Source: Paenibacillus endoradicis
Lineage (GTDB): Bacteria > Bacillota > Bacilli > Paenibacillales > Paenibacillaceae
DNA: 64,000 nucleotides
Assembly (NCBI RefSeq): GCF_024721975.1
Contig: NZ_JANQBB010000003.1
Span: forward strand, 248,001 to 312,000
Direction: 5' to 3'
Positions 27,337 to 57,191 of the stretch are shown here, in pieces. Made by a program: the position numbers and the translations under genes. How positions within the stretch are numbered: the stretch's first letter is position 1; each line of letters starts with the position of its first letter. The notes under the pieces are model-generated. The model saw only the letters and a program-made list of their open reading frames with translations, was not told where the DNA came from and made no database searches.

Positions 27337-27397
27337 ATGCTTACGATGCTATTTTTCAATTACGAAGATGTATTGCAAGAAGCAATTGAAAAATATT
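27337..27397 (+). promoter_or_regulatory. Leader hairpin motif, copy A
   Basis: CTTACG (27340), then a perfect 10-bp stem (ATTTTTCAAT at 27351-27360 with ATTGAAAAAT at 27385-27394) around a 24-nt loop. It is the same layout as copies B, C and D but lacks a good Shine-Dalgarno after it. It stands directly before copy B. Confidence 0.65.
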
Positions 27398-27401
27398 AGA
27401 G

Positions 27402-27473
27402 TATACTTACGAAGTTACTTTTCAATTACAAGTAGTGTTACTGGAAAGTATTGAAAAGTTTGAGGAGATGAAA
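27402..27473 (+). promoter_or_regulatory. Leader hairpin motif, copy B, before the thioesterase gene
   Basis: CTTACG (27406), stem ACTTTTCAAT (27417-27426) with ATTGAAAAGT (27450-27459), then GAGGAG (27462-27467) and the ATG at 27475. The second base pair of the stem is C-G here and T-A in copy A, so the pairing is kept while the bases change. Confidence 0.7.
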
Positions 27474-27474
27474 T

Positions 27475-27936
27475 ATGAAGGATTTCTGGTATACTCATCC
27501 AATTAGAGTAAGATATCAAGAAACAGATCAAATGAGTGTAGTATTTCATGGAAATTATGTAACCTGGTTCGAAATTGGACGTACAGAATGGATAAGAAGT
27601 ATGGGGTATCATTATCGTGATATAGAAGATAAAGGGTTATTACTACCTGTTATCGATCTTGCTGTGAAATACGTCTCTCCTGCGAAGTATGATGATATGG
27701 TCATTGTGTGTACGCGCATGAAAGAATGTACACCATTGCGAATAGAGTTCGAATCACAAGTACGTAAAGTGACAAATGATAATTTCTTATCTTCCGAGTA
27801 TGCTAATGAAAACGAACTGCCAGGTGATTTACTCGTTACTGGTGGTACGAAACATGTATGGGTGAATTCGAACTTTCAACCTACTCGTATATCTAAAGTG
27901 ATGCCCGAATTATATGAAGTGATAGCCAATAGTTAA
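27475..27936 (+). CDS. YbgC/4-hydroxybenzoyl-CoA-type acyl-CoA thioesterase
   Basis: 153-residue hotdog-fold hydrolase that would cleave an acyl-CoA thioester. The signature RVRYQETDQMSVVFHGNYVTW with the catalytic Asp/Glu region and EIGRTEWIR helix is clear near the N-terminus. The substrate cannot be read from the sequence. The ATG has GAGGAG 7 nt upstream, right behind leader copy B. fxsA follows after 14 bp, likely in the same transcript. Confidence 0.87.
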   Translation: MKDFWYTHPIRVRYQETDQMSVVFHGNYVTWFEIGRTEWIRSMGYHYRDIEDKGLLLPVIDLAVKYVSPAKYDDMVIVCTRMKECTPLRIEFESQVRKVTNDNFLSSEYANENELPGDLLVTGGTKHVWVNSNFQPTRISKVMPELYEVIANS

Positions 27937-27950
27937 CGGGGGTGAGTTAC

Positions 27951-28343
27951 ATGAGGAAATGGATTTTAGTGCTAGTTATTTTGTTACCCATTATTGAAAT
28001 TTGGGGCATATTACAAGTAGGAGATTGGATTGGTGGCTGGAATACATTTGTTCTTCTATTGTGTATGAGTCTTTTTGGAGCATTCGCGACGCTGATGGAA
28101 GGTAAGAAAGTTTTATTAGAGGCGCAACGTCAGATGAGCTCGGGACAAATTCCAGGTCGTTCATTTATTAATGGAGTATGTGTGTTAGTGGGAGGTATTT
28201 TACTTCTTATCCCAGGATTTTTGAGTGATATTGTTGGTTTGATTTTACTATTACCTTTTACACGTCCGATCCTTGAAGGATTTATATTGAAATGGATAGA
28301 AAAAAGTATGAGAAATGGTAAATTCACTATAAATAGGTTTTAA
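27951..28343 (+). CDS. fxsA: FxsA-family membrane protein
   Basis: 130 residues from the ATG at 27951 (GGGGGTG lies 7 nt before it; the frame opens at the upstream GTG at 27942). Three hydrophobic segments, with the FxsA-typical LLPIIEIWGILQVGDWIGG start and LLLIPGFLSDIVGLILLLP segment. The FxsA name comes from suppression of phage F exclusion in E. coli; the cellular role is unknown. Bacillus has this gene (ytzA) near pyk and citZ too. Confidence 0.9.
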   Translation: MRKWILVLVILLPIIEIWGILQVGDWIGGWNTFVLLLCMSLFGAFATLMEGKKVLLEAQRQMSSGQIPGRSFINGVCVLVGGILLLIPGFLSDIVGLILLLPFTRPILEGFILKWIEKSMRNGKFTINRF

Positions 28344-28345
28344 AT

Positions 28346-28384
28346 TTAACAATTGCTTTACAATTGTTTGCATTAATTTTAACG
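28346..28384 (+). promoter_or_regulatory. Pho-box-like direct repeats before ppk1
   Basis: TTAACA (28346), TTTACA (28357) and TTAACG (28379) are in phase at 11 and 22 bp, with a weaker TTTGCA at 28367 filling the gap. The Bacillus PhoP site is TT(A/C/T)ACA repeated every 11 bp. A TATAGT (28394) follows at -10-like distance. Confidence 0.6.
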
Positions 28385-28460
28385 ATCATATCATATAGTT
28401 AAGCTATTGCAGTATTGCTGAATCATCAGTAACTAACATTACTGCATAGGGGGAAGACTC

Positions 28461-30539
28461 ATGTCAAAGCAATTGTCAGCTTATCTCAATCGAGATCTTA
28501 GTTGGATTGAATTTAATCGTCGTGTACTACAAGAGGCACAAGATTCAACCAATCCATTATTAGAAAGAGCTAAATTTCTAGCTATAGTTACATCCAATTT
28601 AGATGAGTTTATGAGTGTAAGAGTTGCAGGAATTCATGAACAGATTAGAGCAGGATTAACGAAAATGGACTTTACAGGCTATTCACCTTCTGGTCTATGG
28701 AAAAGATTGCAAAAGAGAACGAAAGATATCGTACATGATCAATATCGTACTTATCGTGATATAGTGAAATGCATGAACAAGGAAGGCATTTTCATTCGCA
28801 ATATGGCGGATTTGAATAGTACACAACAGAAGTTAGTAGAGGATTATTTTTACGATATTGTGTTTCCTGTATTAACACCAATGGCTGTAGATCAAAGTAG
28901 ACCATTCCCACATGTGCATACTAAAGAGTTGTATCTGGCTGTTTCTTTGAGGCTTGAAAATCAAGTAAATCAAGATGAACCTTTATTTGCTATTATTCAA
29001 GTTCCAAGTATTTTACCGCGTTTTGTAACGATTCCTGGTCGTGGAAATAGTAAAAAGCAAGAATTTATATTACTTGAAGATTTATTAAAATCTTATATTC
29101 ATACTTTATTTAATGGTTACACACCGTTTGCAGTTAGTACATTCCGATTAACACGTAATGCGGACCTAACACTTGATGAAGAAGGCGCAGAGGATTTGTT
29201 AGAGGAAATAGAAAAGGAGCTTCGTCGTCGAAAATGGGGAGTTGCTGTTCGTCTTGAAATAGAGCATGATATTGAACCGTTTGCTCTAGAAATGTTGAAG
29301 GATGAACTTGAAATTAATGATGGTCTGTTTATGATAGATGGTCCACTTGACCTCAGCTTCTTGATGAAATTTTCTAACTCTATTCCTGGTCGTGATCAGC
29401 TTCGTAATGAGAAGTTTGAACCTGAATATGCTAAGGAATTTGAAGATGCAGATAATATTATGAGTGTCATCGCGCAGAGAGATGTGCTCTTATATCATCC
29501 TTATGAATCGTTCGAACCAGTGAATGAATTTGTTTGGCAAGCTGCACAAGATCCAGAAGTATTGGCGATTAAGATGACGATGTATCGTGTAAATGGACAT
29601 TCTTCGCTTGTCAAAGCATTGGAGTATGCGGCAGCAGAAGGTAAGCAAGTTACTGTAGTCGTAGAGCTAAAGGCAAGGTTTGATGAAGAGCGAAATATTG
29701 CTTGGGCAAAGCAATTAGAAAAAGCTGGTTGTCACGTTGTATATGGATTAGTCGGTTTGAAAATTCATGCAAAGATATTATTGGTCGTACGTCGTGAGCA
29801 ACATGGATTGAAGCGATATGTTCATGTTGGAACAGGTAATTATAATGAAAATACAGCAAAAACATATACAGATATTGGATTAATGACAAGTAATGATACG
29901 ATTGGAACTGATGCTTCTGCGCTCTTTAACGAGGTCACAGGATATTCTGTTCCTCGCAATTGGGAAGCATTTGCCGTTGCACCTAGTGGTATGAAACAGA
30001 AACTAATTAGATTAATTGATCGTGAAATTGAAAATGCACATGCAGGTAAAGAAGCGAAAATCATTGCAAAGATGAACAGTTTATCAAACCAAGAAATGAT
30101 TAATAAGTTATATGAAGCTTCGATTGCGGGCGTCAAAATCGAATTAATTATTCGTGGCGTTTGTTGTTTAAAACCTGAAGTACCAGGTTTAAGTGAAAAT
30201 ATAAAAGTAATAAGTATTGTAGATCGTTATCTTGAACATTCTCGAATTGTTTATTTCTTTAACGATGGTGCCGAAGAAGTTTACTTATCCAGCGCTGATT
30301 GGATGACTAGAAATCTTGAGAAACGTGTAGAGTTATTATGTCCGGTGTTTGACAATGAGTTGAAAAATACGCTAATCGTACTGTTAAACATGAGCCTTGG
30401 CGATAATACGAAAGCTAGACAACTGAAAATGACTGGTCAGTATGAAGCTGTTAATCGTGAGCACGAAGTTCCATTCCGCAGTCAATATGTTGCACAGCGA
30501 GTTGATAAGTGGAAGGGGACTCAATATCCCGTTACTTGA
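28461..30539 (+). CDS. ppk: Polyphosphate kinase 1
   Basis: Reversibly polymerises the gamma-phosphate of ATP into polyphosphate. 692 residues with the four PPK1 parts: N-terminal helical domain starting LNRDLSWIEFNRRVL, head domain, and two phospholipase-D-like C-terminal domains. VGLKIHAKILLVVR carries the histidine that is autophosphorylated in the family, followed by HVGTGNYNENTAKTYTD. The ATG follows GGGGGAAG. It is convergent with ppx, and the upstream sequence has a Pho-box-like array, suggesting induction when phosphate is low. Confidence 0.97.
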   Translation: MSKQLSAYLNRDLSWIEFNRRVLQEAQDSTNPLLERAKFLAIVTSNLDEFMSVRVAGIHEQIRAGLTKMDFTGYSPSGLWKRLQKRTKDIVHDQYRTYRDIVKCMNKEGIFIRNMADLNSTQQKLVEDYFYDIVFPVLTPMAVDQSRPFPHVHTKELYLAVSLRLENQVNQDEPLFAIIQVPSILPRFVTIPGRGNSKKQEFILLEDLLKSYIHTLFNGYTPFAVSTFRLTRNADLTLDEEGAEDLLEEIEKELRRRKWGVAVRLEIEHDIEPFALEMLKDELEINDGLFMIDGPLDLSFLMKFSNSIPGRDQLRNEKFEPEYAKEFEDADNIMSVIAQRDVLLYHPYESFEPVNEFVWQAAQDPEVLAIKMTMYRVNGHSSLVKALEYAAAEGKQVTVVVELKARFDEERNIAWAKQLEKAGCHVVYGLVGLKIHAKILLVVRREQHGLKRYVHVGTGNYNENTAKTYTDIGLMTSNDTIGTDASALFNEVTGYSVPRNWEAFAVAPSGMKQKLIRLIDREIENAHAGKEAKIIAKMNSLSNQEMINKLYEASIAGVKIELIIRGVCCLKPEVPGLSENIKVISIVDRYLEHSRIVYFFNDGAEEVYLSSADWMTRNLEKRVELLCPVFDNELKNTLIVLLNMSLGDNTKARQLKMTGQYEAVNREHEVPFRSQYVAQRVDKWKGTQYPVT

Positions 30540-30545
30540 GAGGAT

Positions 30546-30715
30546 GTTCAAAACGTCCACTTGTGATCACGACGGGTAGCTACGAAGTGTATTCGACGGC
30601 GAATATGACATGAAGTCGGAGAATGTGATACGCGCGTACCAATTACGTACGCTGTGTTTCTCGCTACCTAGACTTCAAGCCATCTTCTTGGAGCTGACAA
30701 GCTAACGTTTTGAAC
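30546..30715. repeat. Dispersed terminal-inverted-repeat element, copy R2
   Basis: 170 bp, exactly the length of R1, with 11-bp end repeats (GTTCAAAACGT/ACGTTTTGAAC). Inner hairpins: TGAAGTC (30611) with GACTTCA (30671), and GCGTAC-CAATTAC-like core with GTACGC (30634-30652). It begins 7 bp after the ppk1 stop codon. A TTCAAAAAG half-motif follows at about 30731. Confidence 0.8.
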
Positions 30716-30801
30716 TTCGATTAAAAGTAGATGTTCAAAAAGCAGACTTTGATAACGATGATTATGCTAAAGTAGTATAATCGAAATCAAATGTGAAGCG
30801 A

Positions 30802-30851
30802 AAAAGCTGTACAAGTTCACTGAGTGTAAGTTGTGAACTTGTACAGCTTTT
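30802..30851. terminator. Terminator between ppk1 and ppx
   Basis: A perfect 19-bp stem (30802-30820 and 30833-30851) with a 12-nt loop and A/T runs at both ends. It can serve both convergent genes. Confidence 0.9.
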
Positions 30852-30874
30852 GTTATGGTTGAAAACTTCAAATG

Positions 30875-32401
30875 TTAATAGATAGACGAAACCTTCAAAA
30901 CAGGCTTCACGTTCCATTGTTTTTTGAAATCATTGGCTAGCTCTTTAATTTTAAGTTGTTCGATCGATAACTCTGATTTATCAGCATGCGCTTGAATAAT
31001 CATCTTTTCATCCGCTATTGTTAGATCTAATTGATTAATGCTCTGGGTTTCGCTATGGTCTAGTGCAGCAGCAAGTTGAAGGATCATGCCTAATTTACAA
31101 ATTAATTCGATATCCTCCGCGCTTATTAGCTCGTTATAATCCTTCAGCTCATTACGTGTTTTGTTTTTGCTTCGGTATGACGCGATCGCCGCAACTAGTA
31201 ATATCTCTTTATGAGACAACCCGTTTAAATGGGAATGGATGATAAGATAGAAGGTATGCTTACTATAATCATAGTAGTCGATTGTAGCACCGATGCGATA
31301 TAGATTTGCAGCAGTTTTGAGATACAATGACAGTTGAGCTAGGTACTCGCTATCACTGTGCAATTGCTGCAATAACTGAACTGCTACAGTACTCACATGT
31401 TCTACATGCGCACGAGGGACAGCTGTGTGTAAGGCAAGCAAGTTTTGTACACTATATTGTAGAGGATGCTGTAATAGTGGTTGTTCAGGGAAAAATAGTT
31501 TGTGAAATAGACCATCTCTCAAACCAGCACCGCAAATAATGTAATGTGTACCTTGTATATATTGAAAGATCGTAGACATAACAGCAATTCCAGGGACAAT
31601 TACATCGACTCGATCCTTACTCAATCCAGCTTCTTTCTTACGTTTGTCTTGCGGAAGTTGACGTAAATGTTGAAATAGAGTCAGCACTTGTTCCGATTGA
31701 ATTGGATAATTATGTGTCTGAGAGAACGGATACTGAATTGCTGCTTGATGAATCTTGCCTAATGAACGTGCTGTTCCGCCAACTGCAATAAGTGGTAGAT
31801 GCATATATTTTGTAATCCATTCGTGCTTATTCAATTCTGTAATAACATCATGTTGCAACGATTGCAGTTGTTGATCAGTCAAACCTTGATGACTATCATA
31901 TTTTTTATTGAAGCTTACGCAACCGAATGAAAAGGAGAACGAGTGAACGATTTTTCGATTAAGAAACAATGTGAGTTCAGATGAACCGCCTCCAATATCA
32001 AGTAAAAAGCCATTTTGTATGGATAGAGAATTGACCATTCCTAAGAAACCGAATTCTGCTTCTTCTGCACCTGTAAGAACTCTGATCATTAGTCCAGTTG
32101 CTTCATATACACGCTCTATGATTGTCTGTTGATTTGTAGCATTACGAATAGCTGCAGTTGCAATTGGAACTAGTGTTACGAGTTTATGTTGTGAGGCAAA
32201 TAAAGTGAAAATTTGTAATGTTTCAATGAGATCATTGATGCCATTATCATTAAGTTCACCTTGTTCATTCACTTTACCGCTTAGCCTTGCGGAACGCTTA
32301 TTACCATCAACGACGCGATGAGCACCATTTTCAGTTTTTTCGTATATTACAAGTCGAATGGAATTCGACCCGATGTCAATAATGCCATAACGTTTCGTCA
32401 T
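30875..32401 (-). CDS. ppx: Exopolyphosphatase (Ppx/GppA family)
   Basis: Releases phosphate from the ends of polyphosphate chains. 508 residues from the ATG at 32401, with AGGAGG upstream. The ASKHA ATPase-like fold is clear: IIDIGSNSIRLVIYE at the N-terminus, FLLDIGGGSSELTLF near 140, and VGGTARSLGKIH near 220. The C-terminal ~200 residues are the HD-like helical domain of long Ppx proteins. It faces ppk1, giving synthesis and breakdown genes side by side. Confidence 0.93.
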   Translation of the reverse strand: MTKRYGIIDIGSNSIRLVIYEKTENGAHRVVDGNKRSARLSGKVNEQGELNDNGINDLIETLQIFTLFASQHKLVTLVPIATAAIRNATNQQTIIERVYEATGLMIRVLTGAEEAEFGFLGMVNSLSIQNGFLLDIGGGSSELTLFLNRKIVHSFSFSFGCVSFNKKYDSHQGLTDQQLQSLQHDVITELNKHEWITKYMHLPLIAVGGTARSLGKIHQAAIQYPFSQTHNYPIQSEQVLTLFQHLRQLPQDKRKKEAGLSKDRVDVIVPGIAVMSTIFQYIQGTHYIICGAGLRDGLFHKLFFPEQPLLQHPLQYSVQNLLALHTAVPRAHVEHVSTVAVQLLQQLHSDSEYLAQLSLYLKTAANLYRIGATIDYYDYSKHTFYLIIHSHLNGLSHKEILLVAAIASYRSKNKTRNELKDYNELISAEDIELICKLGMILQLAAALDHSETQSINQLDLTIADEKMIIQAHADKSELSIEQLKIKELANDFKKQWNVKPVLKVSSIY

Positions 32402-32575
32402 TATTATCCTCCTGCGTGACAATCATTAATACTCGTACATTATTTTATCATAATATGGAGAGGCTTATCATTATCTACTGTATAAATATTCACAATTCTT
32501 TAGGAATTAATTCGAAATGTGATATAATGTACAAGTTATGTAAATACATACTGATTCAATATATCAATGACTGCG

Positions 32576-32590
32576 ATAAAGCATTTTTAT
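32576..32590 (+). promoter_or_regulatory. CcpC-like operator upstream of citZ
   Basis: ATAA (32576-32579), seven bases, TTAT (32587-32590): an exact match to the ATAA-N7-TTAT dyad bound by CcpC at citZ and citB in Bacillus. A TTGACA (32611-32616) that could be the -35 lies 20 bp downstream; no convincing -10 was found. citZ starts at 32700. Confidence 0.5.
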
Positions 32591-32699
32591 CCTTGTTATT
32601 GTTCACTTTTTTGACAAAATCCTATATCATTGAAATTAGTGGTAAAGGTTAGTCCGATTTTCAAGTACTCATTCATTCAATAATAAAGGAGAGGGAACG

Positions 32700-33812
32700 A
32701 TGACAGCAACAAAAGGTCTTGAAGGTATTGTAGCAGCACAATCATCCATCAGTTCTATTATTGATGGAATTTTGACATACCGTGGAATTAATATCGATGA
32801 TCTCGCTGAGCATGCATCATTTGAAGAAGTTGCATATTTACTATGGTATGGTAAATTACCAAATCGTGCAGAACTTGCAGATTTGCAACAAAATCTTGAT
32901 ACGTATGCAGTTATTCCATCGGAAGTCATTGAAGGAATTAAGTTATATCCTAAAGATACCAATTCAATGGCAGCACTTCGTACAGCAGTTTCAAGTCTTG
33001 CGCTTTATGATACGTCAAGTAATGAAATGTCACAATCAGCGAATATACTGAAAGCGATTAAATTACAAGCACAGCTACCTACAATTGTAGCGGCTTTTGC
33101 TCGTATTCGTGAAGGAAAAGAACCAATTGCTCCTAAGCAAGGTGTTTCTATCGCACACAATTTCTTGTATATGTTAACTGGTGAAGAGCCTGCTGATGTT
33201 GCCGTGAAAGCACTAGACCAAGCGCTAGTCCTTCATGCTGATCATGAATTGAATGCTTCTACCTTTGCTGCACGTGTAACTGTTGCGACTCTATCTGATA
33301 TATATTCTGGTGTTACTTCTGCTATTGGAGCTTTGAAAGGGCCACTTCATGGTGGTGCAAATGAGGCTGTAATGGTTATGCTAGAGGAAATCGGTTCCAA
33401 AGAAAATGTGAATGCTTATATTGAAAAGGCATTAGCAAATAAAGTGAAAATTATGGGCTTTGGTCATCGTGTATATAAAAATGGTGATCCTCGTGCAAAG
33501 CACTTACAAAAAATGTCTCTTGAACTTGGTAAGCTTACGGGTAATATGGAACTTTATGAAATGTCAGTACAAATCGAAGATCTTGTTACAGGTCAAAAAG
33601 GCTTAAAACCGAATGTAGACTTCTATTCTGCTTCTGTTTATACTGCATTACAAATTCCTCGCGATTTGTTCACGCCAATATTTGCAATTAGCCGTGTTTC
33701 TGGTTGGAGTGCTCATATTCTTGAACAATACGAGAATAATCGTTTAATTCGTCCTCGTGCTGAATATGTTGGACCTGTAGGTGCAACATATGTTGGTATC
33801 GATGAAAGATAA
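32700..33812 (+). CDS. citZ: Citrate synthase
   Basis: Condenses acetyl-CoA and oxaloacetate to citrate. 370 residues, the short Gram-positive type. Catalytic segments are visible: GPLHGGANEAV (His), MGFGHRVYKNGDPRAKHL (His) and PNVDFYSASVYTALQIP (Asp). GGAGAGG precedes the ATG. It begins the citZ-icd-mdh block, but a repeat element and an intrinsic terminator split the three genes. Confidence 0.97.
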   Translation: MTATKGLEGIVAAQSSISSIIDGILTYRGINIDDLAEHASFEEVAYLLWYGKLPNRAELADLQQNLDTYAVIPSEVIEGIKLYPKDTNSMAALRTAVSSLALYDTSSNEMSQSANILKAIKLQAQLPTIVAAFARIREGKEPIAPKQGVSIAHNFLYMLTGEEPADVAVKALDQALVLHADHELNASTFAARVTVATLSDIYSGVTSAIGALKGPLHGGANEAVMVMLEEIGSKENVNAYIEKALANKVKIMGFGHRVYKNGDPRAKHLQKMSLELGKLTGNMELYEMSVQIEDLVTGQKGLKPNVDFYSASVYTALQIPRDLFTPIFAISRVSGWSAHILEQYENNRLIRPRAEYVGPVGATYVGIDER

Positions 33813-33823
33813 AAAGTAGATGT

Positions 33824-34026
33824 AATTCAAACATTCTCTTGTAATCACGATGACTCTGCTAACGGGGCATATTCGGCGGTGAAGATGCCATTCATCGGTC
33901 GTAAGTCTAGGCTTCCGTTGAATGTTTCTTGCAGAAACATTGTAACCAATAACGTACGCTGTGCGCTTCACATCCCCAGCATCATGGCATCGTCTGTGCG
34001 CTGACAAGCAAATGTTTTGAATTTTT
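33824..34026. repeat. Dispersed terminal-inverted-repeat element, copy R3
   Basis: About 200 bp with end repeats close to AATTCAAACATT/AATGTTTTGAATT. It shares TTGTAATCACGA, CCAATAACGTACGCTGTGCGC and GCTGACAAGC with R1 and R2. It has an 8-bp inner stem (GATGCCAT at 33884 with ATGGCATC at 33984) and an extra hairpin AATGTTTCT/AGAAACATT that makes it longer. A TTCAAAA/TTTTGAA hairpin follows at about 34036-34060. Confidence 0.75.
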
Positions 34027-34110
34027 ATTTTATGGTAGTTCAAAATTTATTTTTTGAACACGCTCTAACAATACTAAATATTTAACCAATTTTAAGGAGG
34101 ATTTTATTAC

Positions 34111-35406
34111 ATGTCATTATTTGAACAATTCGCAATGCCTACTGAAGGCGAGAAAATTACTATCGAGAACGGTACACTTCAAGTTCCAAACCAACCAATT
34201 ATTCCATTCATCGAAGGTGACGGAACGGGTCGTGACATTTGGGCAGCATCTAAACGTGTTCTTGATGCAGCTGTTGAAAAAGCTTATAACGGCGACAAAA
34301 AAATCGCTTGGTATGAAGTTTTTGCTGGTGAAAAAGCATTCAATGGTTACGGCGAATGGTTGCCTGCTGATACTCTTTCTGCAATTCGTGAATATATCGT
34401 AGCAATTAAAGGTCCTCTTACTACTCCAATCGGTGGTGGTATTCGTTCATTGAACGTTGCACTTCGTCAAGAACTTGACCTATATACTTGTATCCGTCCT
34501 GTTCGTTATTTCGACGGTGTTCCTTCACCAGTTAAACGTCCTGAACTAGTAGACATGGTTATCTTCCGTGAAAATACAGAAGATATCTATGCAGGAATCG
34601 AGTATCAAGAAGGTTCAGATGCAGTTAAAAAAGTAATCGAATTTCTTCAAAATGAAATGAATGTTAAAAATATTCGTTTCCCTGAAACTTCTGGTATTGG
34701 TATTAAACCAGTTTCATCTGAAGGTTCAAAACGTCTTGTACGTGCTGCGATTGAATATGCAATCAAACATGACCGTAAATCAGTAACACTAGTTCACAAA
34801 GGTAACATCATGAAATTCACTGAGGGTGCTTTCAAAAACTGGGGCTACGAAGTGGCTGAACAAGAATTTGCAGAGCAAACTTTCACTTGGGATCAATATG
34901 ATCGCATTAAAGCAGCTGAAGGCGTAGATGCAGCTAACGCGGCTCAAGCAGCAGCTGAAGCAGCTGGCAAAATTATTGTTAAAGATGCAATTGCTGATAT
35001 TGCGCTTCAACAAGTTCTAACTCGTCCAACTGACTTTGATGTTATTGCAACACTTAACTTGAATGGTGACTACTTATCCGATGCACTTGCTGCACAAGTT
35101 GGTGGTATTGGTATCGCTCCAGGAGCGAACATTAACTACTTGACAGGTCATGCGATTTTCGAAGCAACTCATGGTACTGCTCCGAAATATGCTGACAAAG
35201 ACGTAGTTAACCCAGGATCTGTTATTCTTTCTGGCGTAATGCTTCTTGAGCACCTAGGCTGGCAAGAAGCTGCTGACCTTATCTACAAAGGTATGGAAAC
35301 AGCAATTAACAATAAAACAGTAACTTATGACTTCGCACGTCTAATGGAAGGCGCTACAGAAGTTAAATGTTCTGAATTCGCTAACCAAATCATCAACAAC
35401 TTATAA
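34111..35406 (+). CDS. icd: Isocitrate dehydrogenase (NADP type)
   Basis: Oxidative decarboxylation of isocitrate to 2-oxoglutarate. 431 residues. Seen: [12 protein letters not shown], the phosphorylation/substrate loop [29 protein letters not shown], and [20 protein letters not shown], the cofactor region whose basic/tyrosine layout is that of the NADP-dependent Bacillus enzyme. The ATG is preceded by AAGGAGG. Codon use is strongly biased, as expected for high expression. A terminator lies between icd and mdh. Confidence 0.97.
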
Positions 35407-35427
35407 TATATTGCTTGAATAGAATTC

Positions 35428-35460
35428 AAACAAAGAGAGCCCTGTTGGCTCTCTTTGTTT
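35428..35460 (+). terminator. Terminator between icd and mdh
   Basis: A perfect 14-bp stem (AAACAAAGAGAGCC at 35428-35441 with its complement at 35447-35460), 5-nt loop, T-rich right arm. Confidence 0.85.
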
Positions 35461-35490
35461 ACATAAATCTTTACATATGAAAAATTAAGC

Positions 35491-35568
35491 AAATGCTTAC
35501 GGTGACATTTTTCAATTACATAGTAGTCTATCAAGAAAAATATGGAAAATTTTAGGAGGTTTAATAAT
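35491..35568 (+). promoter_or_regulatory. Leader hairpin motif, copy C, before mdh
   Basis: CTTACG (35496), TTTTTCAATTAC (35508), stem ATTTTTC (35507-35513) with GGAAAAT (35544-35550), then AGGAGG (35554-35559) and the mdh ATG at 35569. Loop bases AGTAGT and CAAGAA are shared with copies A or B. It lies after the icd terminator, so mdh needs its own promoter or readthrough. Confidence 0.7.
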
Positions 35569-36522: not shown

Positions 36523-36536
36523 TCTCTGCCTTAAAT

Positions 36537-36606
36537 AAGGTCCTATCGATGGTATAGAAAACATAGAGAAAGAATCTCTATCATTTCTACATCGGCAGGA
36601 CCTTTT
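36537..36606 (+). terminator. Terminator of mdh
   Basis: Outer arms AAGGTCCT/AGGACCTT, inner arms around TAGAGA/TCTCTA and TAGAAA/TTTCTA, then TTTTG. A long composite hairpin. Confidence 0.8.
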
Positions 36607-36653
36607 GTTATGTTACTATAGATAAATAGTATTTAATTAGAGGTGAACTATTA

Positions 36654-46593: not shown

Positions 46594-46594
46594 G

Positions 46595-47225: not shown

Positions 47226-47405
47226 ATCAAAAACCTCCTAAAACTTTCGTTTATTACTTGATTGACCTCACTTTAAAGAAAAATACTTGAATGCAAATGT
47301 TTTTTTGGACAATATAGGTCTAAAAACTGGAAGGGCTCGTATACATATTACTACAAAAGACAAGTTGTACAAAGTTTTTGATGAAAATAGGGGAGGATTT
47401 ATACA

Positions 47406-48458: not shown

Positions 48459-48547
48459 TTTGCTCGCAATGTACTGTGAGCTGGCGCGCCCTTACAAGTT
48501 CTAGCCTTTAACATCAAGCTACGACAATTAACGTATAAAGAATGGTG

Positions 48548-48632
48548 AAATCCTCTCTATTGTACTTAATGTAATTATTCCATGAGAAATTATGGGTAGT
48601 ACATTATTACATAGCGGGGATTTTTGTTTTTC
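48548..48632 (+). terminator. Weak composite hairpin after gerM
   Basis: AAATCC/GGATTT outer arms, GTAC-type and ATGTAA/TTACAT inner pieces and CCAT/ATGG at the tip, followed by T-rich sequence. The rest of 48459-48772 shows no gene; a TTGACT near 48645 may belong to the promoter of the sugar operon. Confidence 0.45.
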
Positions 48633-48772
48633 TAACAAATTAAGGTTGACTATGTGATGTCATTCCATACAGGTTAAAAATTTATAAAAACAAGTCAATT
48701 TATTCAAAAGACGCTGGGCACTTCAAACTCTACACTTAAGAGGTAAGTAAATAGTGAGAGGGGCTCAGAGAA

Positions 48773-49846
48773 ATGAAAAAAGGTTTAATGTTTATTGTAC
48801 TTTCACTCATCGTTATGTCACTTGCAGCATGTTCAAGTAATAGTGGAGGTTCCAAAAGTGACAAAGGAAGTGTAGGTCTTTCCATGCCCACAAAATCTTC
48901 TGAACGTTGGGTTGCTGATGGAGGAAATATGAAAAAGGAATTTGAAGCACTTGGATACGATGTAGATCTTCAATATGCAGAAGATGTTATTGAAAACCAA
49001 GTATCTCAAATCGAGAACATGATTACAAAAGGAGTCAAAGTACTTATTATCGCTGCGATAGATGGTGAATCATTAACGGACGTATTACAAAAAGCGGCTG
49101 ATGAGAACATTTCAGTTATCGCATATGATCGGTTAATTAGAAATACAGAACATTTAAGTTATTATGCAACGTTTGATAATTTCAAAGTTGGTGTACTTCA
49201 AGCTTCTTACATTGAAGATAAGTTAGGGCTGAAAGAGGGGAAGGGACCGTTCAATATTGAACTATTCGGTGGTTCACCCGATGACAACAATGCTTATTTC
49301 TTCTTCGATGGTGCGATGAGTGTACTACAACCATATATCGATAATGGTAAATTAGTTGTGAAAAGTGGTCAGACAAAAATGGAGCAAGTTGCAACATTAC
49401 GATGGGATGGCGCAACAGCACAGTCTCGTATGGACAACTTACTAAGTGCGAACTACACATCTGATCAAGTGGATGCAGTTCTTTCTCCATATGATGGTAT
49501 TAGTATCGGTATTATCTCATCATTAAAAGGTGTAGGTTACGGTTCAGGAGATAAAGCAATGCCGATCATTAGTGGTCAAGATGCTGAACTGGCTTCTGTC
49601 AAATCGATTATTGCAGGTGAACAAACATCTACGATCTTCAAAGATACACGCGAACTTGCGAAAGTAGCCGTATCTATGGCTGAAGCTGTTCTTGAGGGGA
49701 AAGAAGCTACTATTAATGATACGACAACTTACGATAATGGAGTGAAGGTTGTTCCTTCCTTCTTATTAGAACCAGTAAGTGTAGATATTATGAATTACAA
49801 AGAAATACTGATCGATTCAGGTTACTACGCTGATAGCGATTTTTAA
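48773..49846 (+). CDS. Sugar ABC transporter substrate-binding lipoprotein (ChvE/XylF type)
   Basis: 357 residues. Lipobox LAACSS (Cys near 20), then a periplasmic-binding-protein type 1 fold: [56 protein letters not shown]. The pattern (Tyr-Asp-Arg-Leu and Ser-Pro-Tyr/Asn-Asp) is that of ChvE-like multiple-sugar and xylose binding proteins for pentoses or galactose-like sugars. It delivers its ligand to the permease and ATPase encoded downstream. A hairpin between it and the ATPase gene may keep the binding protein in excess. Confidence 0.9.
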
Positions 49847-49867
49847 GTTAGTTATAGGTTATCAAAG

Positions 49868-49903
49868 ATAGAAATGATTTGGTAATTACCGAATCATTTC
49901 TAT
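49868..49903 (+). terminator. Partial terminator between binding-protein and ATPase genes
   Basis: A 16-bp stem with one mismatch-like G-T pair (49868-49883 and 49888-49903) and 4-nt loop. Partial termination would give more binding protein than transporter. Confidence 0.7.
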
Positions 49904-49941
49904 TCATTTCTAAAAGTGAGTGAAGGAGAGGAAGTGGCAAT

Positions 49942-51477
49942 TTGTCAGAAGTAATCTTGGCGATGAATGGTATTACTAAAACATTTCCTGGAGTAAAAGC
50001 ACTCGAAAATGTGAATTTACGAGTACTAGAAGGAGAAATTCATGCCTTAATGGGTGAGAATGGTGCTGGAAAATCTACTTTAATGAAAGTGTTATCTGGC
50101 GTGTATCCCTTTGGTTCTTACGAAGGTGAAATCTACTTTGAAGATGTTCTATGTCAGTTTCAAGATATTTCACAAAGTGAACAAAAGGGAATTGTAATTA
50201 TTCATCAAGAACTTGCGTTAATTCCTCAGTTATCTATAGCAGAAAATATATTTCTCGGCAATGAACGTAGTCATCGAGGTGTTATTAATTGGTACGAAAC
50301 AGATTTAGCGACAAAAGAGCTATTAGCCAAAGTTGGACTTGTGGAAGCTCCGACTACTTTAGCTAGCATGATAGGTGTTGGAAAGCAGCAATTAGTGGAA
50401 ATTGCAAAAGCATTATCTAAAAAAGTAAAACTGTTAATTCTAGATGAACCAACGGCAGCACTCAATGAAGAAGATAGTGAGAACCTTCTTCAACTACTTC
50501 TTCAGTTCAAAGAAGAAGGGATTACATCTATTATTATTTCTCATAAATTGAATGAAATTATGAAAGTAGCAGATGCGATTACGATATTACGAGATGGTCA
50601 AACAATAGAAACTTTGTATATGACACAAGATGATATTTCTGAAGAACGGATAATTAAAGGAATGGTTGGTCGTGATCTAACGCATCGATATCCAGAGAGG
50701 ACGCCCAATATTGCTGAAACATTTTTTGAAATAAAAAATTGGACGGTATATCATCCGACTCAAAGTCAGCGCTGCATAATTGATAATGTCCAATTGCATA
50801 TTAGGCGAGGTGAAATTGTAGGAGTAGCTGGCTTAATGGGAGCAGGTCGAACTGAACTTGCGATGAGTATCTTTGGAGAGAGCTACGGTCGTAAAGTAAG
50901 TGGTGAAGCTTTTAAGAATGGTAAGCTCATTAAACTAAACAACATTCGAGCGGCAATAGATTATGGAATTGCATACGTAACTGAAGACCGTAAAGAGTAT
51001 GGACTTATTCTTATTGATGATATTAAGCACAATATTACACTAGCAAATTTGAAAAGAATATCTTCAAAAAATATTGTGAATGATCACCAAGAATTAATGG
51101 ATGCTGAAGATTTTAGAACACGACTTAATATTAAGACACCAAGTGTACACCAGAAAACAGGTAACTTATCTGGTGGTAATCAACAAAAGGTTGTCTTAAG
51201 TAAGTGGATTTACACTGAGCCTGATTTGCTCATATTAGATGAACCAACAAGAGGGATAGACGTCGGTGCGAAGTATGAAATATATAAGATTATTAATGAA
51301 TTAGCAGATGAAGGTAAAGGAATTATGTTGATATCTTCAGAATTACCAGAATTGCTAGGTATGTGCGATCGCATCTATGTAATGAATGAGGGGTTGTTTA
51401 CAGGCGAAGTAATACGCTCAGAAGCAAATCAAGAATTGCTTATGAAATTTATGACGAAAGGGCGAAATAACCAATGA
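49942..51477 (+). CDS. Sugar ABC transporter ATP-binding protein (MmsA/XylG type)
   Basis: 511 residues with two ABC domains, as usual for the CUT2 family. First domain: Walker [17 protein letters not shown], degenerate signature [15 protein letters not shown], Walker [12 protein letters not shown]. Second domain: [15 protein letters not shown] (degenerate A), signature [28 protein letters not shown]. It probably starts at TTG 49942 behind GGAGAGGAAG. It overlaps the permease gene by 4 bp. Confidence 0.92.
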
Positions 51478-52640
51478 TTGAAGCACTCAAAAAGATGTTT
51501 CGCAGCAATATAAGACAATATGGAATGTTTATTGCACTTATATTAATTATGCTATTTTTTCAAGTTCTTACGGATGGTACATTATTAAAACCACTGAATA
51601 TTACGAATCTCATACTACAAAATAGTTATATTCTTATTCTCGCAATTGGGATGTTACTTGTTATCATTACTGGTCATATTGATCTATCCGTTGGTTCTGT
51701 TGCTGCTTTTGTTGGAGCTGTATCCGCTATAATGATGGTTAATTATGATATTCCATTCGTATTAGCCGTTATTCTCTCTCTTCTTATTGGAGCATTAGTA
51801 GGTGCATGGCAAGGATTCTGGATTGCTTATGTACGCATACCCGCATTCATTGTGACATTAGCAGGGATGTTACTTTTTCGAGGCTTAACGATGCTTGTAC
51901 TCAATGGGAAGTCGGTATCGCCCTTTCCTGATGGATTTCGTGCGATAAGTACTGGCTTTATTCCAGATTTCGCTCATGCTAGTAGCACACATATGGTAAC
52001 GATCATAATAGGGATTGCCTTATCATTATTACTTGTATATTCAGAGTGGAGACAGCGCTTAATAGAGAAGCGATACAATCTAGAATTGCTGCCATTACCT
52101 ATAATTATCTTTAAAATGGTCTTCATTACTGCGATTATTAACTACTTTACGTTGATTACAGCATCATATAAAGGCTTACCTAATATTTTTATTTTACTAT
52201 TTGTATTAGTTCTATTTTATTCCTTTGTAATGAAGCGTACAGTGGTTGGTAGACATATCTATGCACTAGGTGGTAATGAAAAAGCTGCAAGACTATCTGG
52301 TGTGAAGACGAAGAAAATGACGTTTTGGGTATTTGTTAATATGGGAGTATTAGCAGCACTTGCAGGACTCGTATTTGCTGCACGTTTAAATGCGGCTACA
52401 CCAAAAGCTGGAGTCAACTTTGAACTAGATGCGATTGCAGCTGCATTTATTGGTGGAGCATCAGCAACAGGTGGCGTGGGAACAGTTATTGGAGCAATTA
52501 TAGGCGGATTAGTGATGGGTGTTATGAACAATGGAATGTCGCTTATTGGGCTTGGAATAGACTATCAACAAGGGATCAAGGGGTTAGTATTACTGTTAGC
52601 GGTAGCGTTTGATATCTATAATAAAAACAAATCAGCATAA
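51474..52640 (+). CDS. Sugar ABC transporter permease (MmsB/XylH type)
   Basis: 388 residues, about ten membrane segments; the [18 protein letters not shown] and [16 protein letters not shown] motifs are typical of CUT2 permeases for monosaccharides. The ATG overlaps the TGA of the ATPase gene. It completes the transporter with the two preceding genes. Confidence 0.93.
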
Positions 52641-52694
52641 GTTCTAAATATGCTATAATTTTGAATATTATGGATGAAATTGGAGGTGATAATC

Positions 52695-53708
52695 GTGAAG
52701 AAGCTCATATTCATGTATCTAGTCCTAATCTTAACCTTGTCGACCTATTTATTCGCCATTTATTATCGAGGCGATAGTACCGAAGCAATCGAACAAGAAG
52801 CAGGACTTCATGGAAGCATGGATGAGAAGTATGTCATGGTAAATTTCCTCACTGGTATTGATTATTGGAAAAATATATTAAAAGGATTTGAGGATGCTGC
52901 CGCTAATCTAGGAGTATCTATAGAATATAAAGGCTCGACGCAATACGATGTACAAGAGCAAATTATTGTGCTGGAACAGGTTATTGCAAGAAAACCTGCG
53001 GGGATTGCTTTATCAGCGATGGATTCAGAAGCGCTTAATGATGCAATTAACAAGGCAGTAGAAGCGGGTATACCTGTCGTTATGTTTGATGCTAACGCAC
53101 CGGATAGCGCTGCGTATTCCTTTATCGGAACAAACAATTATGAGGCAGGAGTAACTGCTGCTAGAGAGATGGCTAATTTAGTCGGAAACAAAGGGCAGAT
53201 TGGTATTATCACTCACCCGAATCAGTTGAATCATAAGCAACGAACACAAGGGTTTCAAGATACTTTACGTAATGAATATCCAGAACTAGAAGTCGTTGCT
53301 ATTGAAGATGGTAAAGGTGATCAACTTATCACTGAGCAGAAAGCAAAGATGTTAATAGGTGAATACGACAAGTTATTGGGGATCTTTGTAACCGAAGCAA
53401 GTGGTGGAGTAGGTGTAGGTAATGCACTTATTGCAGAAGATGCCTATAAGAGAGTTAAAGTAATCGGCTTTGATACAGATAAAGGTACGTTAGATATGAT
53501 AAAGAGTGGTGTACTATCAGCCACAATTGTTCAAGGGACATGGAATATGGGGTACTGGTCATTAATCCAATTATTCCATCTACACCATGAAATATTAGAG
53601 CCAATACCTGATTGGAAGAATACTAATATCGCACCGCTACCAACTTATGTAGATACAGGAGTTTCGGTTGTATGCAAAGAAAATGTCGATCATTTCTATG
53701 CAAAATAG
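52695..53708 (+). CDS. Second sugar-binding protein (RbsB-like), coupled to the two-component system
   Basis: 337 residues from the GTG at 52695, which has GGAGGTG 6 nt upstream. The N-terminal hydrophobic segment (about 4-22) has no lipobox Cys, so it is a signal anchor or peptide. The rest is a type 1 binding-protein fold: GIALSAMDSEALNDAI, VVMFDANAPDS, KVIGFDTDKGTLD. It lies 54 bp after the permease and 27 bp before the histidine kinase gene. It probably presents the sugar to the kinase rather than to the transporter; this is inference from position. Confidence 0.83.
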   Translation: MKKLIFMYLVLILTLSTYLFAIYYRGDSTEAIEQEAGLHGSMDEKYVMVNFLTGIDYWKNILKGFEDAAANLGVSIEYKGSTQYDVQEQIIVLEQVIARKPAGIALSAMDSEALNDAINKAVEAGIPVVMFDANAPDSAAYSFIGTNNYEAGVTAAREMANLVGNKGQIGIITHPNQLNHKQRTQGFQDTLRNEYPELEVVAIEDGKGDQLITEQKAKMLIGEYDKLLGIFVTEASGGVGVGNALIAEDAYKRVKVIGFDTDKGTLDMIKSGVLSATIVQGTWNMGYWSLIQLFHLHHEILEPIPDWKNTNIAPLPTYVDTGVSVVCKENVDHFYAK

Positions 53709-53735
53709 AGAGAGTCATAGGAAGGAGAGTAGGAG

Positions 53736-55601
53736 ATGTTTTCTAAATGGCTACAATTCAATAACTTATCTATACGTAATAAATTGATATTGCATTTTAT
53801 TCTCATTAGTATTCTTCCTTCTCTCGTTATTACATTATTAATATCTTGGACAGTAAGTAATATGCTGGAAAAACAATCTAATACACAAATATTGCAGCTG
53901 ATTGGGAATGTAAGTAAGTCGCTTGATGCCCAAGCAGCAAATATACAAAATATCTCTTATTTCATCTCAATGGATCCAGATATTCAAACATATCTTAATG
54001 ACGGATCAATCTCCATTGCCAAAGATGAAGATCGTTATCGTCTATATCGGTTTTTGCAAAGCTTTACAACGTTATATTCAGAGATCGCAGGTATCATGAT
54101 TGTACGTGCGGATGGTCAATATTTCAGTAATGATATGTACGCAAGATCGGAACGGAATCTAACGGAAGAATATTGGTATCATGAGGCAATGGCAGCTAGA
54201 GGTATCTACAAAATGATAGGTCATCCTTCTGAACGTAATGTTACGACTCATGTCAATTACAAAGATAGTGAAATCGTATCTGTCGTTAGAGCGATACAAG
54301 ACCCAGATACTGGAACAACGAAAGGTGTTGTTCTCATTGATCTAAAGTTAAGAGTGATTGCTGAAATGCTTGGCGATGTGAAATTAGGAAAAAGTGGCTA
54401 TCTCATCGTAGTAGATAATAACAACGATTTGATCTATTCTCCCAAGAACGGAATTACTTTAGATCGTGAAGCGATTGTTCAACTTTTAGAACAATCTGCT
54501 ACGGGAAGTTTCGCTATTGATACTAAGGATGAACAGCTTCAAATTTTATATCAAAAATCTAATTTTACGAATTGGACGACGGTTGGTGTATTTCCTATGC
54601 GGGATACTTTACAAGCGATTAAAGATGTTAATTTGTACTTAGTTATCTTTCTTTTTGTTGTTTGCATGCTAGGAATTACTGCATCTTATTATTTGTCGTT
54701 CTCTATATCAAGACCGATTGCTCAACTGGCATCTTCAATGCGTAAAGTAGAAGAAGGTAATATGAATATTCGCTTTTCGGGAGTACGTCAAGATGAGGTA
54801 GGTAGATTAGGTAATAGTTTTAATAAGATGTTAACGCAGATGAAGAAATTGTTAATGCAGGTTGAACAAGAACAAAACATGAAACGAGAAGCCGAACTGA
54901 GAAGTCTGCAGGCACATATTCAACCTCATTTTCTCTATAACACATTAGATACAATTCAATGGCTTGCGCGAAAAGATGGCGCCAAAGAAGCAACAGAAAT
55001 GGTTGAGGCTTTATCAAAATTATTTCGTCTTGGACTGAGTAAAGGACAAGAGTTAATTCCGATGCATGATGAGATTGAGCATATCACAAGTTATCTTGTC
55101 ATTCAAAAGACACGCTACAAAGATAAATTAAACTATTCCGTCGATATTGAAGACGGTATTACAACGTTATTTGTTATCAAATTAATATTACAGCCACTTG
55201 TTGAGAATGCGATCTATCATGGTATTAAGGAGCGCAGAGGGCCTGGGAATATTACTATACGTGCTAGTGTTAGTCATGGGTTTCTACGTATTACTGTAGC
55301 AGATGATGGAGCAGGTATGAATGAGGCGAGATTACTACAGTTACGTCATGTGTTGCAATCTCTTGCTGAATCAACCTCTGAAGAGCTACCTACACTTGAG
55401 TTAACTCGTAACGGTCAAAGTGTCGGTTATGGCTTAAGAAATGTTCAAGAGCGACTACAACTTAGTTTCGGGGGACTATATGGAATCAGTGTAGATAGTT
55501 CAGTCGGAAAAGGCACAATGGTAACGATCAGTCACCCGATCATAAAGCAGAAAGGGAGAGAAGCAAATGTTGAAAACTTGGAAAGTTATCATAGCGGATG
55601 A
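53736..55601 (+). CDS. YesM-type sensor histidine kinase
   Basis: 621 residues: membrane helix (about 20-40), extracellular Cache-like sensing domain (about 45-295), second helix (about 300-322), HAMP (about 325-375), His_kinase domain with the phosphoacceptor His in LQAHIQPHFLYNTLDTIQW, and HATPase (QPLVENAIYHGI, VADDGAGM, GYGLRNVQERL). It pairs with the downstream regulator, whose gene it overlaps by 35 bp. AGGAGAG precedes the ATG. Confidence 0.93.
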   Translation: MFSKWLQFNNLSIRNKLILHFILISILPSLVITLLISWTVSNMLEKQSNTQILQLIGNVSKSLDAQAANIQNISYFISMDPDIQTYLNDGSISIAKDEDRYRLYRFLQSFTTLYSEIAGIMIVRADGQYFSNDMYARSERNLTEEYWYHEAMAARGIYKMIGHPSERNVTTHVNYKDSEIVSVVRAIQDPDTGTTKGVVLIDLKLRVIAEMLGDVKLGKSGYLIVVDNNNDLIYSPKNGITLDREAIVQLLEQSATGSFAIDTKDEQLQILYQKSNFTNWTTVGVFPMRDTLQAIKDVNLYLVIFLFVVCMLGITASYYLSFSISRPIAQLASSMRKVEEGNMNIRFSGVRQDEVGRLGNSFNKMLTQMKKLLMQVEQEQNMKREAELRSLQAHIQPHFLYNTLDTIQWLARKDGAKEATEMVEALSKLFRLGLSKGQELIPMHDEIEHITSYLVIQKTRYKDKLNYSVDIEDGITTLFVIKLILQPLVENAIYHGIKERRGPGNITIRASVSHGFLRITVADDGAGMNEARLLQLRHVLQSLAESTSEELPTLELTRNGQSVGYGLRNVQERLQLSFGGLYGISVDSSVGKGTMVTISHPIIKQKGREANVENLESYHSG

Positions 55602-56772
55602 TGAAGCCATTATCCGTGAAGGTATTAGAGCTTCGATCCCTTGGCAAAATATTCAACTGGAAGTAGTAGCTGAAGCTGAAGATGGTGAAGAAGCACTTGA
55701 ACTTGCATTAGAATATGAAGTAGATATTATCCTTGTTGATTTGAGTATGCCGATAATGAATGGATTAACGCTAATCCGACAGTTGCGAGAGAAACTACCG
55801 AATTGTTTGGTTAGTATTATTACAGGTCATGATGAATTTAGCTATGCACAACAAGCTATTAAGCTTAATGTACATGATTACATATTAAAACCTATTAACC
55901 CTGAATTACTAAGTGAGATGTTACGTAAAATGGTTATTAAATTAGAGAAAAATGAAGTTCAATCCTCCCTTATGATTCAAGCTTCCAAGCAAATTGATAA
56001 AAATATTGATGCTTTACGAGAACGCTTTTGTCAAGAGTGGGTAAAGGGTGAAATTGAACAAGATGAAATAATCGTTCAACTGAAATTTCTTCGCTTAGCA
56101 GTTATTGCTCCGAAAGCAATTGCTATTGTTAGATGGCAAGATCAAGTCAATTTTCGTAGTATGCATGGCGAACGTGATCGTCAACTTATACTATATGCGA
56201 TTGAGAATATTGCTAAGGAATGTATTGCAGAGCATTGTCAACATATATTTCGTGATGAGAAGCAAGACATTATTATAATGCTTGCTGGTTCTCTTCCTCA
56301 ATGGAAAGAATTGCAGATCATTGAGTCGATTAAGCGATATTTGAACATTGATATACGCTGGTGCGAGTATGCTAATCTTAACGGTTATACAGGTGTTTCT
56401 CACTCCTATATGGAAGCAAAGCAACAGCTGAATCGTGAAATTATGCTAACTCCATTAATTAAACAAGCTAAAGATCAGATTGATGAGCGATATTGGGATG
56501 GCTCTCTGTCGCTTGAGAAGATCGCTTGTCACTTAAATGTGACTCCAGTGTATTTAAGTAGAGCATTTAAGCAGGAGTTAGGATATTCCTTTATCCATTA
56601 TGTAACATTTATTAGAATGAAGCGGGCTATACATCTACTTCAAGATCAGCGTCTTAGCATATTAGAAATAGCAGAAAAGACTGGTTACGATACGCAGCAT
56701 TACTTCAGTACTGCTTTCAAGAAACTTATAGGGATGTCCCCTAATCAATATCGAAAAGCAGATCGAACATAA
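55567..56772 (+). CDS. YesN-type response regulator with AraC DNA-binding domain
   Basis: 401 residues. Receiver domain 1-125: acidic pocket Asp11-Asp12, phospho-acceptor Asp58 (ILVDLSMPIMNG), Lys in DYILKPINPE. Middle region of unknown role; C-terminal AraC HTH (about 300-400: LNVTPVYLSRAFKQELGY and ILEIAEKTGYDTQHYFSTAF). It starts at the ATG at 55567 with AAGGGAGAG upstream. It probably controls the adjacent sugar transporter operon. A terminator follows. Confidence 0.93.
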   Translation: MLKTWKVIIADDEAIIREGIRASIPWQNIQLEVVAEAEDGEEALELALEYEVDIILVDLSMPIMNGLTLIRQLREKLPNCLVSIITGHDEFSYAQQAIKLNVHDYILKPINPELLSEMLRKMVIKLEKNEVQSSLMIQASKQIDKNIDALRERFCQEWVKGEIEQDEIIVQLKFLRLAVIAPKAIAIVRWQDQVNFRSMHGERDRQLILYAIENIAKECIAEHCQHIFRDEKQDIIIMLAGSLPQWKELQIIESIKRYLNIDIRWCEYANLNGYTGVSHSYMEAKQQLNREIMLTPLIKQAKDQIDERYWDGSLSLEKIACHLNVTPVYLSRAFKQELGYSFIHYVTFIRMKRAIHLLQDQRLSILEIAEKTGYDTQHYFSTAFKKLIGMSPNQYRKADRT

Positions 56773-56817
56773 GTTAACGTTTTAACAGTTCGATGGGTTT
56801 ATTATCGTATAGATGTG

Positions 56818-56862
56818 AGCTATTGTAATTAGTAGACGAAGTAACTACTAATTACAATGGCT
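56818..56862 (+). terminator. Terminator of the sugar transport/sensing operon
   Basis: A 14-bp perfect stem (56822-56835 and 56845-56858) extended by AGCT/GGCT, with T residues after it. Confidence 0.85.
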
Positions 56863-57116
56863 TTTGTTAATTAATGGATGTAAAAGTGTGATTTGATGAA
56901 ATCAAAATTAGATGAAATATCCTCTGACATACGCAAATTGCAGATAGCACAAGACAATTCTCTAATATAATGCTAGTTAACATTGGTTAACGAGGTAGGT
57001 TAAAGGAGCGAATTGTAGGCAAACATGAATAGCTAGATACAATTTACTGGTGCATTTACATAAATGCTTTGTTACAATAAGAAATGTTGTACATAAATAT
57101 ATTACAATTAGATGCA
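56863..57116. other. Intergenic region before rph
   Basis: No credible gene. It holds a 24-codon frame at 56896 without a ribosome site. AT-rich; the rph promoter should lie here but no clear -35/-10 pair was found. Confidence 0.4.
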
Positions 57117-57191
57117 ATTTTCTTATCCAATACTTTTCAACTATGAGATGTATTACGGGAGAAAATGAAAAGTTTTGGGAGGCATATTAAT
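57117..57191 (+). promoter_or_regulatory. Leader hairpin motif, copy D, before rph
   Basis: Stem ACTTTTCA (57132-57139) with TGAAAAGT (57166-57173), then GGGAGG (57177-57182) and the ATG at 57192. The CTTACG box is degraded to CTTATC. The loop GATGTATTAC resembles copy A. Confidence 0.6.

Follow-up and report, generated by a model that had tools for sequence, protein, structure and literature searches.

Why should one hairpin recur in front of the ribosome-binding sites of genes that have no common pathway? The question is raised by a 64-kb stretch of Paenibacillus DNA (the window), in which a sequence-only reading described four copies (A-D) of a CTTACG box followed by a hairpin, and then by a Shine-Dalgarno (SD) sequence and a start codon. 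The same reading held the fold to be under selection and offered an RNA thermometer, a protein-binding leader, an RNase site or a translation-enhancer module as possible uses. The four copies do lie where they were reported, with a degraded box in D, but the family to which they belong is far larger.

Copies in the window and their fold

A covariance model (R1) of seven copies, namely A-D and three from a relative, found five clear copies in the window (A-E) and a decayed sixth, F, which has an orthologous copy in the relative G005; a second model (R2) comprised 89 copies (Table 1). The hairpin arms of A-D are of the type ATTTTTCAAT/ATTGAAAAAT, and the SD follows directly in all but A. Thus, copies A and B do stand in tandem before a thioesterase gene as had been described, but the accompanying claim that every copy directly precedes an SD fails for A, which B separates from the gene. 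The stem of copy C has 8 bp, including one G.U, and the paired change noted earlier at the second stem position (T-A in A and C, C-G in B and D) was confirmed. A search for CTTACG-N7-TTTTCAATTAC that tolerated up to three mismatches gave three matches in the window, all with no mismatch; 100 shuffles gave 0.31 matches on average and never three. An exact search across genomes returned 45 loci, and among the four inspected (L007, L022, L023 and L024) L023 is a true copy. This is the thioesterase locus of the metagenome-assembled genome Candidatus Paenibacillus intestinavium (G043), which also carries two tandem copies. L022 and L024, the latter inside an open reading frame (ORF), look like chance matches. 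The window's mdh shares 89% identity with the mdh of Paenibacillus sp. GSMTC-2017 (G002) and 70% with that of a Bacillus.

Table 1. Coordinates of the element, of the SD sequences that follow it and of related features. Positions without a locus prefix are those of the window.
Feature	Position	Strand	Details
Copy A	27338..27397	+	Distal in tandem pair; box CTTACG 27340-27345; hairpin 27351-27394; R1 80.8 bits (training copy)
Copy B	27404..27462	+	SD-proximal; box CTTACG 27406-27411; hairpin 27417-27459; R1 72.6 bits (training copy)
SD GAGGAG, 4HBT thioesterase gene	27462..27467	+	ATG 27475; Pfam PF03061
Copy C, upstream of mdh	35494..35553	+	Box CTTACG 35496-35501; R1 68.1 bits (training copy)
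SD AGGAGG, mdh	35554..35559	+	ATG 35569; Pfam PF00056/PF02866 (Ldh/MDH)
Copy D, upstream of rph	57120..57176	+	Degraded box; hairpin 57132-57173; R1 54.2 bits (training copy)
SD GGGAGG, rph (RNase PH)	57177..57182	+	ATG 57192; Pfam PF01138
Copy E, upstream of sporulation gene ytrH	18757..18816	-	Box TGCTTCCGAAG; changed stem pairs; R1 56.0 bits (untrained); R2 66.2 bits (in R2 set)
SD AGGAGG, ytrH (YtrH)	18751..18756	-	TTG 18742; PF14034
Copy F, decayed, upstream of pgpA	47239..47295	-	R1 22.9 bits, E 0.0054; R2 27.9 bits, E 0.0015
SD GGAGG, pgpA	47234..47238	-	ATG 47225; PF04608
5S-abutting copies in G121	L214 at 618; L216 at 920 (reversed stretch)	-	L169:1482-1520 (minus) is the same place as L216
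Other dispersed repeat in G005	L092:4863; L100:6012; L107:7996	+	Four more places within 1.2 Mb

The element consists of a conserved box of about TTA-TGCTTNCGAWGYNA, apparently single-stranded, which lies 5' of a hairpin that retains its base pairing despite extensive sequence variation; a few nucleotides separate the end of the stem from the SD. Conservation is stronger in the box than in the upper stem and loop, and the box persists even where the tip of the hairpin differs. Unit length is about 61-66 nt in the lineage of the window and about 37-44 nt in several other genomes. The short forms mostly have stems of 7-9 bp, which leave the SD free.

Evidence for the predicted fold is comparative rather than energetic. 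When folded singly, copies A-D are not clearly better than shuffles (z -0.88, -0.53, +0.67 and -1.29, respectively), and the mean hairpin z over 70 leaders is -1.28 against mononucleotide shuffles. In a model-fitted alignment, 117 double-sided changes were counted against 42 in shuffles and the covariation score was 0.239 against 0.111, neither being reached in any of 500 shuffles; pairs showing a double change numbered 8 against 6.3, a count that 21 of 500 shuffles reached. An alignment made with MAFFT from 52 SD-proximal copies (one per array, score of at least 45 bits, from 70 arrays) had 92.6% of its cells paired, compared with at most 65.1% when slid, and contained 33 double changes against 11 in shuffles (0 of 500). 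This alignment showed no excess over shuffles in the number of double-change pairs (4 against 3.2) or of pair types (8 against 8.7); thus, few pairs account for the excess of double changes. RNAalifold, with no structure supplied, predicted eight of the nine named pairs. Taken together, the covariation supports the proposal of a recurring hairpin, maintained by selection, before the ribosome sites of unrelated genes.

Two further pairings were considered and rejected. An H-type pseudoknot (TGCTT/AAGYA) was dropped after reading the copies, since AAGYA is missing from many short-form hairpin tips. A mini-hairpin (GCTT-NCG-AAGY) is unsupported, as 32 of 89 rows have T at position 10 with almost no variation on the opposite side.

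Position, abundance and spread

The sequence-only reading had looked to further matches of a covariance model, and to a bias of those matches towards start codons on the coding strand, for support. Both were found. Among 40 relatives of G043 scanned with R1 at E<=1, at least 137 matches occur in G043 and at least 138 in G005; the remaining 38 have 0 to 9 matches each (best E 0.012). The position of the element was analysed in a sample of G005 covering 1.2 Mb in 60 stretches (23% of the genome), where R2 gave 129 matches at E<=1. These form 84 arrays, of which 51 are single, 24 double and seven triple, with one of four and one of five copies. An array was counted as placed before a gene when an SD, a start codon and an ORF of 50 amino acids or more followed it within 60 nt. 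This held for 69 of the 84 arrays on their own strand and for none of the 84 on the opposite one; of 2000 random places, 146 qualified. The distance to the start codon is 7-17 nt for 66 of these 69; two arrays overlap the start by 2-3 nt and one is 35 nt off. By a second criterion, 70 of the 84 arrays stand in front of an SD and start. The 15 misses comprise seven instances of another repeat, two reverse reads of true copies, two apparent chance matches and four apparent true copies, three of which have an SD-like stretch and one no clear SD.

The other repeat in G005 consists of GCTTNCGATGTATGTTTCTTGCAGAAACATTGTAGG followed by a CGTGTACCAATAACGTACAC stretch; it is partly caught by the model and does not stand before SDs. 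It also occurs at about L023:5022-5110, and its regular expression has no match in the window.

For other species, a script scored 40 of 57 array-final copies as standing ahead of an SD and start. Reading of the 17 exceptions showed that in 12 the script had overrun an SD and start located further downstream. At L174, L175, L184 and L193 an SD and start are present beyond the element, not tightly adjacent to it, and at the rpmJ loci (L174, L184 and L193) the SD lies about 25-30 nt past the hairpin. The remaining exceptions are two misparsed arrays (L164 and L180), one ambiguous locus (L155), one with nothing downstream (L170) and one before a 5S rRNA (L169). The 24 loci read from other genomes mostly show a broader form of the element, with the same box, an often shorter and differently worded hairpin and then the SD. 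At single loci of G004 (L150), G020 (L077) and G051 (L166), the box and hairpin are followed by a shared ATCGCCATACTTTTACCATGTTCCG-like sequence instead of an SD, and these copies are possibly part of a larger repeat.

The element is spread over many relatives, which the window alone could not show. With R2, 32 of 119 relatives have a match at E<=0.01, G027 having 16. An exact pattern for the wider family, comprising the box and first stem arm (TGCTTNCGAWGYNASTTTT), was found in 105 of the 197 relatives of G002 searched, presumably mostly Paenibacillus, with the highest counts in G183 (170), G005 (117), G043 (110) and G169 (65); a reversed control pattern gave two matches in total. Of the 92 relatives in which the exact pattern is missing, at least one (G064) carries a variant. 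Three of 101 relatives of a Bacillus have the exact pattern, with one match each. At gathering score, Rfam 15 had no match in the window, and at E<=1 no Rfam match falls on the element at 12 loci. A literature search, whose coverage mostly excluded subscription papers, found no description of the box-plus-hairpin family. Judging by the titles of the 20 listed among 33 papers that contain a box string, those are probably chance occurrences, e.g. in primers. This class of leader element is therefore apparently undescribed.

In the G005 sample, the element is carried by 66 of 1016 called genes (about 6.5%). The 67 downstream ORFs, named by reading, are diverse and include valS, alaS, mutS, uvrA, ndk and flgK. 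Of 12 G005 genes with an element-carrying relative in another genome (at least 45% identity), four also carry the element against 0.78 expected (p 0.006), in a test that involves small numbers, the 23% sample of G005 and those loci from other genomes that the searches happened to return. The share of genes carrying it and the lack of the exact pattern in 92 of 197 relatives make the element look dispensable. It can also abut a gene that has no SD. In G121, at two rRNA operons that were read, a copy lies between the 23S and 5S rRNA genes and directly adjoins the 5' end of the 5S rRNA as given by Rfam. An SD is thus not required for placement of the element, and these copies argue that translation is not its sole use, or else that it sometimes inserts without function.

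Tandem arrays, gain and loss

Units repeat with a period of 61-66 nt in G005 and 68 nt in G013; in four other genomes, nine of ten stretches have a period of about 37-44 or 61-64 nt and the tenth has a single copy. Of the 32 SD-adjacent multi-copy arrays of the G005 sample, 27 have an SD-proximal copy that outscores the average of the distal ones, with one tie and four arrays in which it scores lower (p 5e-5), an advantage to which the final model positions beside the SD may contribute slightly. Judged by the stem alone, the SD-proximal copy is better in 13 arrays, equal in 18 and worse in one (p 0.013). Identity of 90% or more is seen in 28 of 60 within-array pairs. None of 114 copies has a partner at another locus with that identity, the best being 0.867.

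Orthologous sites differ in copy number. The thioesterase site has two copies in each of the window, G005 and G043, and the mdh, rph, ytrH and pgpA sites have one copy each in the window and two each in G005. The fxsA site has one copy in G043 and none in the window or G005. The best other match to this fxsA copy in G043, among the 40 of 97 candidates that were scored, is 90% identical over 68 nt and precedes an unrelated gene. The patterns within arrays and at orthologous sites suggest that new copies arise by duplication in place, that a copy sometimes arrives at a new gene and that copies displaced from the SD seem to decay.

At ytrH, the orthologous copy is intact in the window, and in G005 (L088:17356-17414) its 5' arm is changed and pairs poorly; a second, intact copy adjoins the SD there. 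The mdh leader of G002 that was read (L046) contains no hairpin; a TATGCTTA stretch retained immediately ahead of the SD may be what is left of the box.

Candidate functions and related systems

Gaps to upstream genes, based on simple ORF calls, indicate that copies apparently sit both in 5' leaders and inside operons. The upstream gene is co-directional for 52 of 70 G005 arrays, and in 14 of these the first copy begins no more than 20 nt after its end; for the 18 arrays with an oppositely oriented upstream gene, all gaps are at least 64 nt. Such short intergenic gaps speak against a DNA-level element, either a promoter box or an operator, and so does the covariation of its pairs, which is that of RNA pairs. 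We consider a DNA-level element very improbable, despite the resemblance of the box to a weak -10 (TATGCT) in some copies, the persistence of TATGCTTA without a hairpin at mdh of G002 and the lack of a located promoter upstream of elements in general. The best sigmaA-like -10 sites neither cluster at the box nor exceed shuffles (7.82 against 7.66, n 49), and promoter scans at the four window loci (A/B, C, D and E) were at chance level. Promoter-like sites upstream of the elements are likewise not in excess of shuffles, which leaves transcription of the box an inference.

An intrinsic terminator or attenuator was rejected, as it would need a G+C-rich hairpin with a U run. The mean G+C content of the hairpin is 0.27 (70 copies), the T run after the A-rich arm is mostly three to four with its first T paired (five in one of 70), and short forms mostly have two to four T or a C after the arm. 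Terminator scans limited to loops of 3-8 nt placed none on the copies at the A/B, C, D and E loci.

The A+U-rich stem just before the SD would suit an RNA thermometer or SD-sequestering switch. That suggestion is not supported and is scarcely credible now, since the SD lies outside the hairpin, the short-form stems leave it free and its predicted accessibility is not below that of controls. At 37 C, the only temperature used for the prediction, the mean unpaired probability of the SD is 0.461; shuffling the element gives 0.424 (p 0.08), and 150 other genes average 0.399 (p 0.055). The apparent gain in predicted accessibility is not significant, and since the prediction leaves the SD no less open than in other genes, an SD-hiding thermometer is unlikely. 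The other earlier suggestions, a protein-binding leader, an RNase site and a translation-enhancer module, are possible.

We favour a cis-acting leader module that works at the RNA level and is dispersed through Paenibacillus and its relatives, with the hairpin as a shield for the RNA behind it that leaves the SD accessible, and the box as a factor site; this reading comes close to an even chance in our estimation. A hairpin beside the SD and upstream of the start codon, the arrangement expected of a stabilising leader, is what was found. The hairpin would guard the 5' side of the cistron that follows it from 5'-to-3' decay, and the SD would stay open because the RNA upstream of it is folded on itself. 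A 5' hairpin, or ribosome binding, can stabilise a long downstream mRNA at a distance in Bacilli (PMC3997798). A purely structural role is insufficient as an explanation of so conserved a box, which might be a recognition or cleavage site for a general RNA factor, e.g. an endoribonuclease. Copies would multiply mainly by local tandem duplication and reach a new gene occasionally, and the SD-proximal copy would be the one kept intact. More tentatively, and with greater doubt on our part than confidence, one box with a freely varying hairpin could mark the front of hundreds of cistrons, and of 5S rRNA in one genome, for a single general RNA-handling factor, the element spreading from gene to gene by duplicating into an SD-adjacent position.

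Two other readings compete with the leader module. The box and hairpin could be the site of a dedicated trans-acting regulator, either an RNA-binding protein or a small RNA, through which hundreds of unrelated genes are jointly controlled once transcription has been initiated. Such a regulator would fit the greater conservation of the box relative to the upper stem and loop, its upkeep where the hairpin tip differs and the tendency of orthologues to keep the element, and its avidity would rise with tandem copies; however, targets such as valS, alaS, mutS, uvrA, ndk and flgK follow no pathway logic, and we regard a dedicated regulator as rather unlikely. The element could also be a selfish or hitch-hiking mobile repeat whose insertion beside SDs is tolerated and whose effect on host genes is incidental. 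The fxsA copy of G043, with its 90% match before an unrelated gene and its empty sites in the window and G005, the extra G005 copies at rph and pgpA and the arrays of up to five copies are all consistent with mobility. However, no recent burst is seen in the sampled 23% of G005, because no between-locus copies reach 90% identity, and a Y1/RAYT transposase occurs in four of nine copy-rich genomes and two of 11 without the exact pattern. None was found in G005, G182, G093, G024 and G081, which have at least 40 exact copies each (six of the 20 genomes gave a match). Moreover, strand bias, SD adjacency and upkeep of the stem near the SD would need selection or an SD-specific insertion mechanism. 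A purely selfish repeat is, in our judgement, unlikely.

The leader module invites comparison with several known systems. REP/BIME elements, which are associated with RAYT transposases, and pneumococcal BOX elements occur as hundreds of short intergenic hairpin repeats, some of them in tandem; the Paenibacillus element differs in being strictly oriented and SD-adjacent, with no clear RAYT link. RNase Y sites lie beside protective stem-loops, as in B. subtilis cggR-gapA, and resemble the element in placing a single-stranded site by a hairpin between cistrons. To our knowledge, however, known RNase Y sites are individual and do not form a repeated family with one conserved box. Single stabilising leaders are likewise known one gene at a time. 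The Bacillus 5' stabilising hairpins (e.g. aprE) also combine a hairpin and an SD in the leader and are thought to protect mRNA (PMC3997798). Those are single leaders of single genes, whereas here one module stands before many genes, apparently also within operons and before 5S rRNA. The closest system by concept is that of the TAACTGA direct repeats of Beggiatoaceae, which are also abundant, tandem and just upstream of the starts of unrelated genes and for which a post-transcriptional role has been proposed. They are heptamers without predicted structure and canonical ribosome-binding sites are reportedly rare among them, whereas the present element has a 37-66-nt unit, a covarying hairpin and a canonical SD (PMC4679880).

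If the favoured reading is true, one structured element before several percent of the genes of a genome, preserved beside the SD across many related genomes, would amount to a general RNA cassette for cistron stability or translation. It would also offer a ready-made expression part and a natural setting for observing how an RNA regulatory part duplicates, decays and is replaced. At one locus of G071 (L168), a ZMP/ZTP riboswitch (RF01750, 1322-1404) lies about 100 nt upstream of the element (1501), before an rpiB-like gene.
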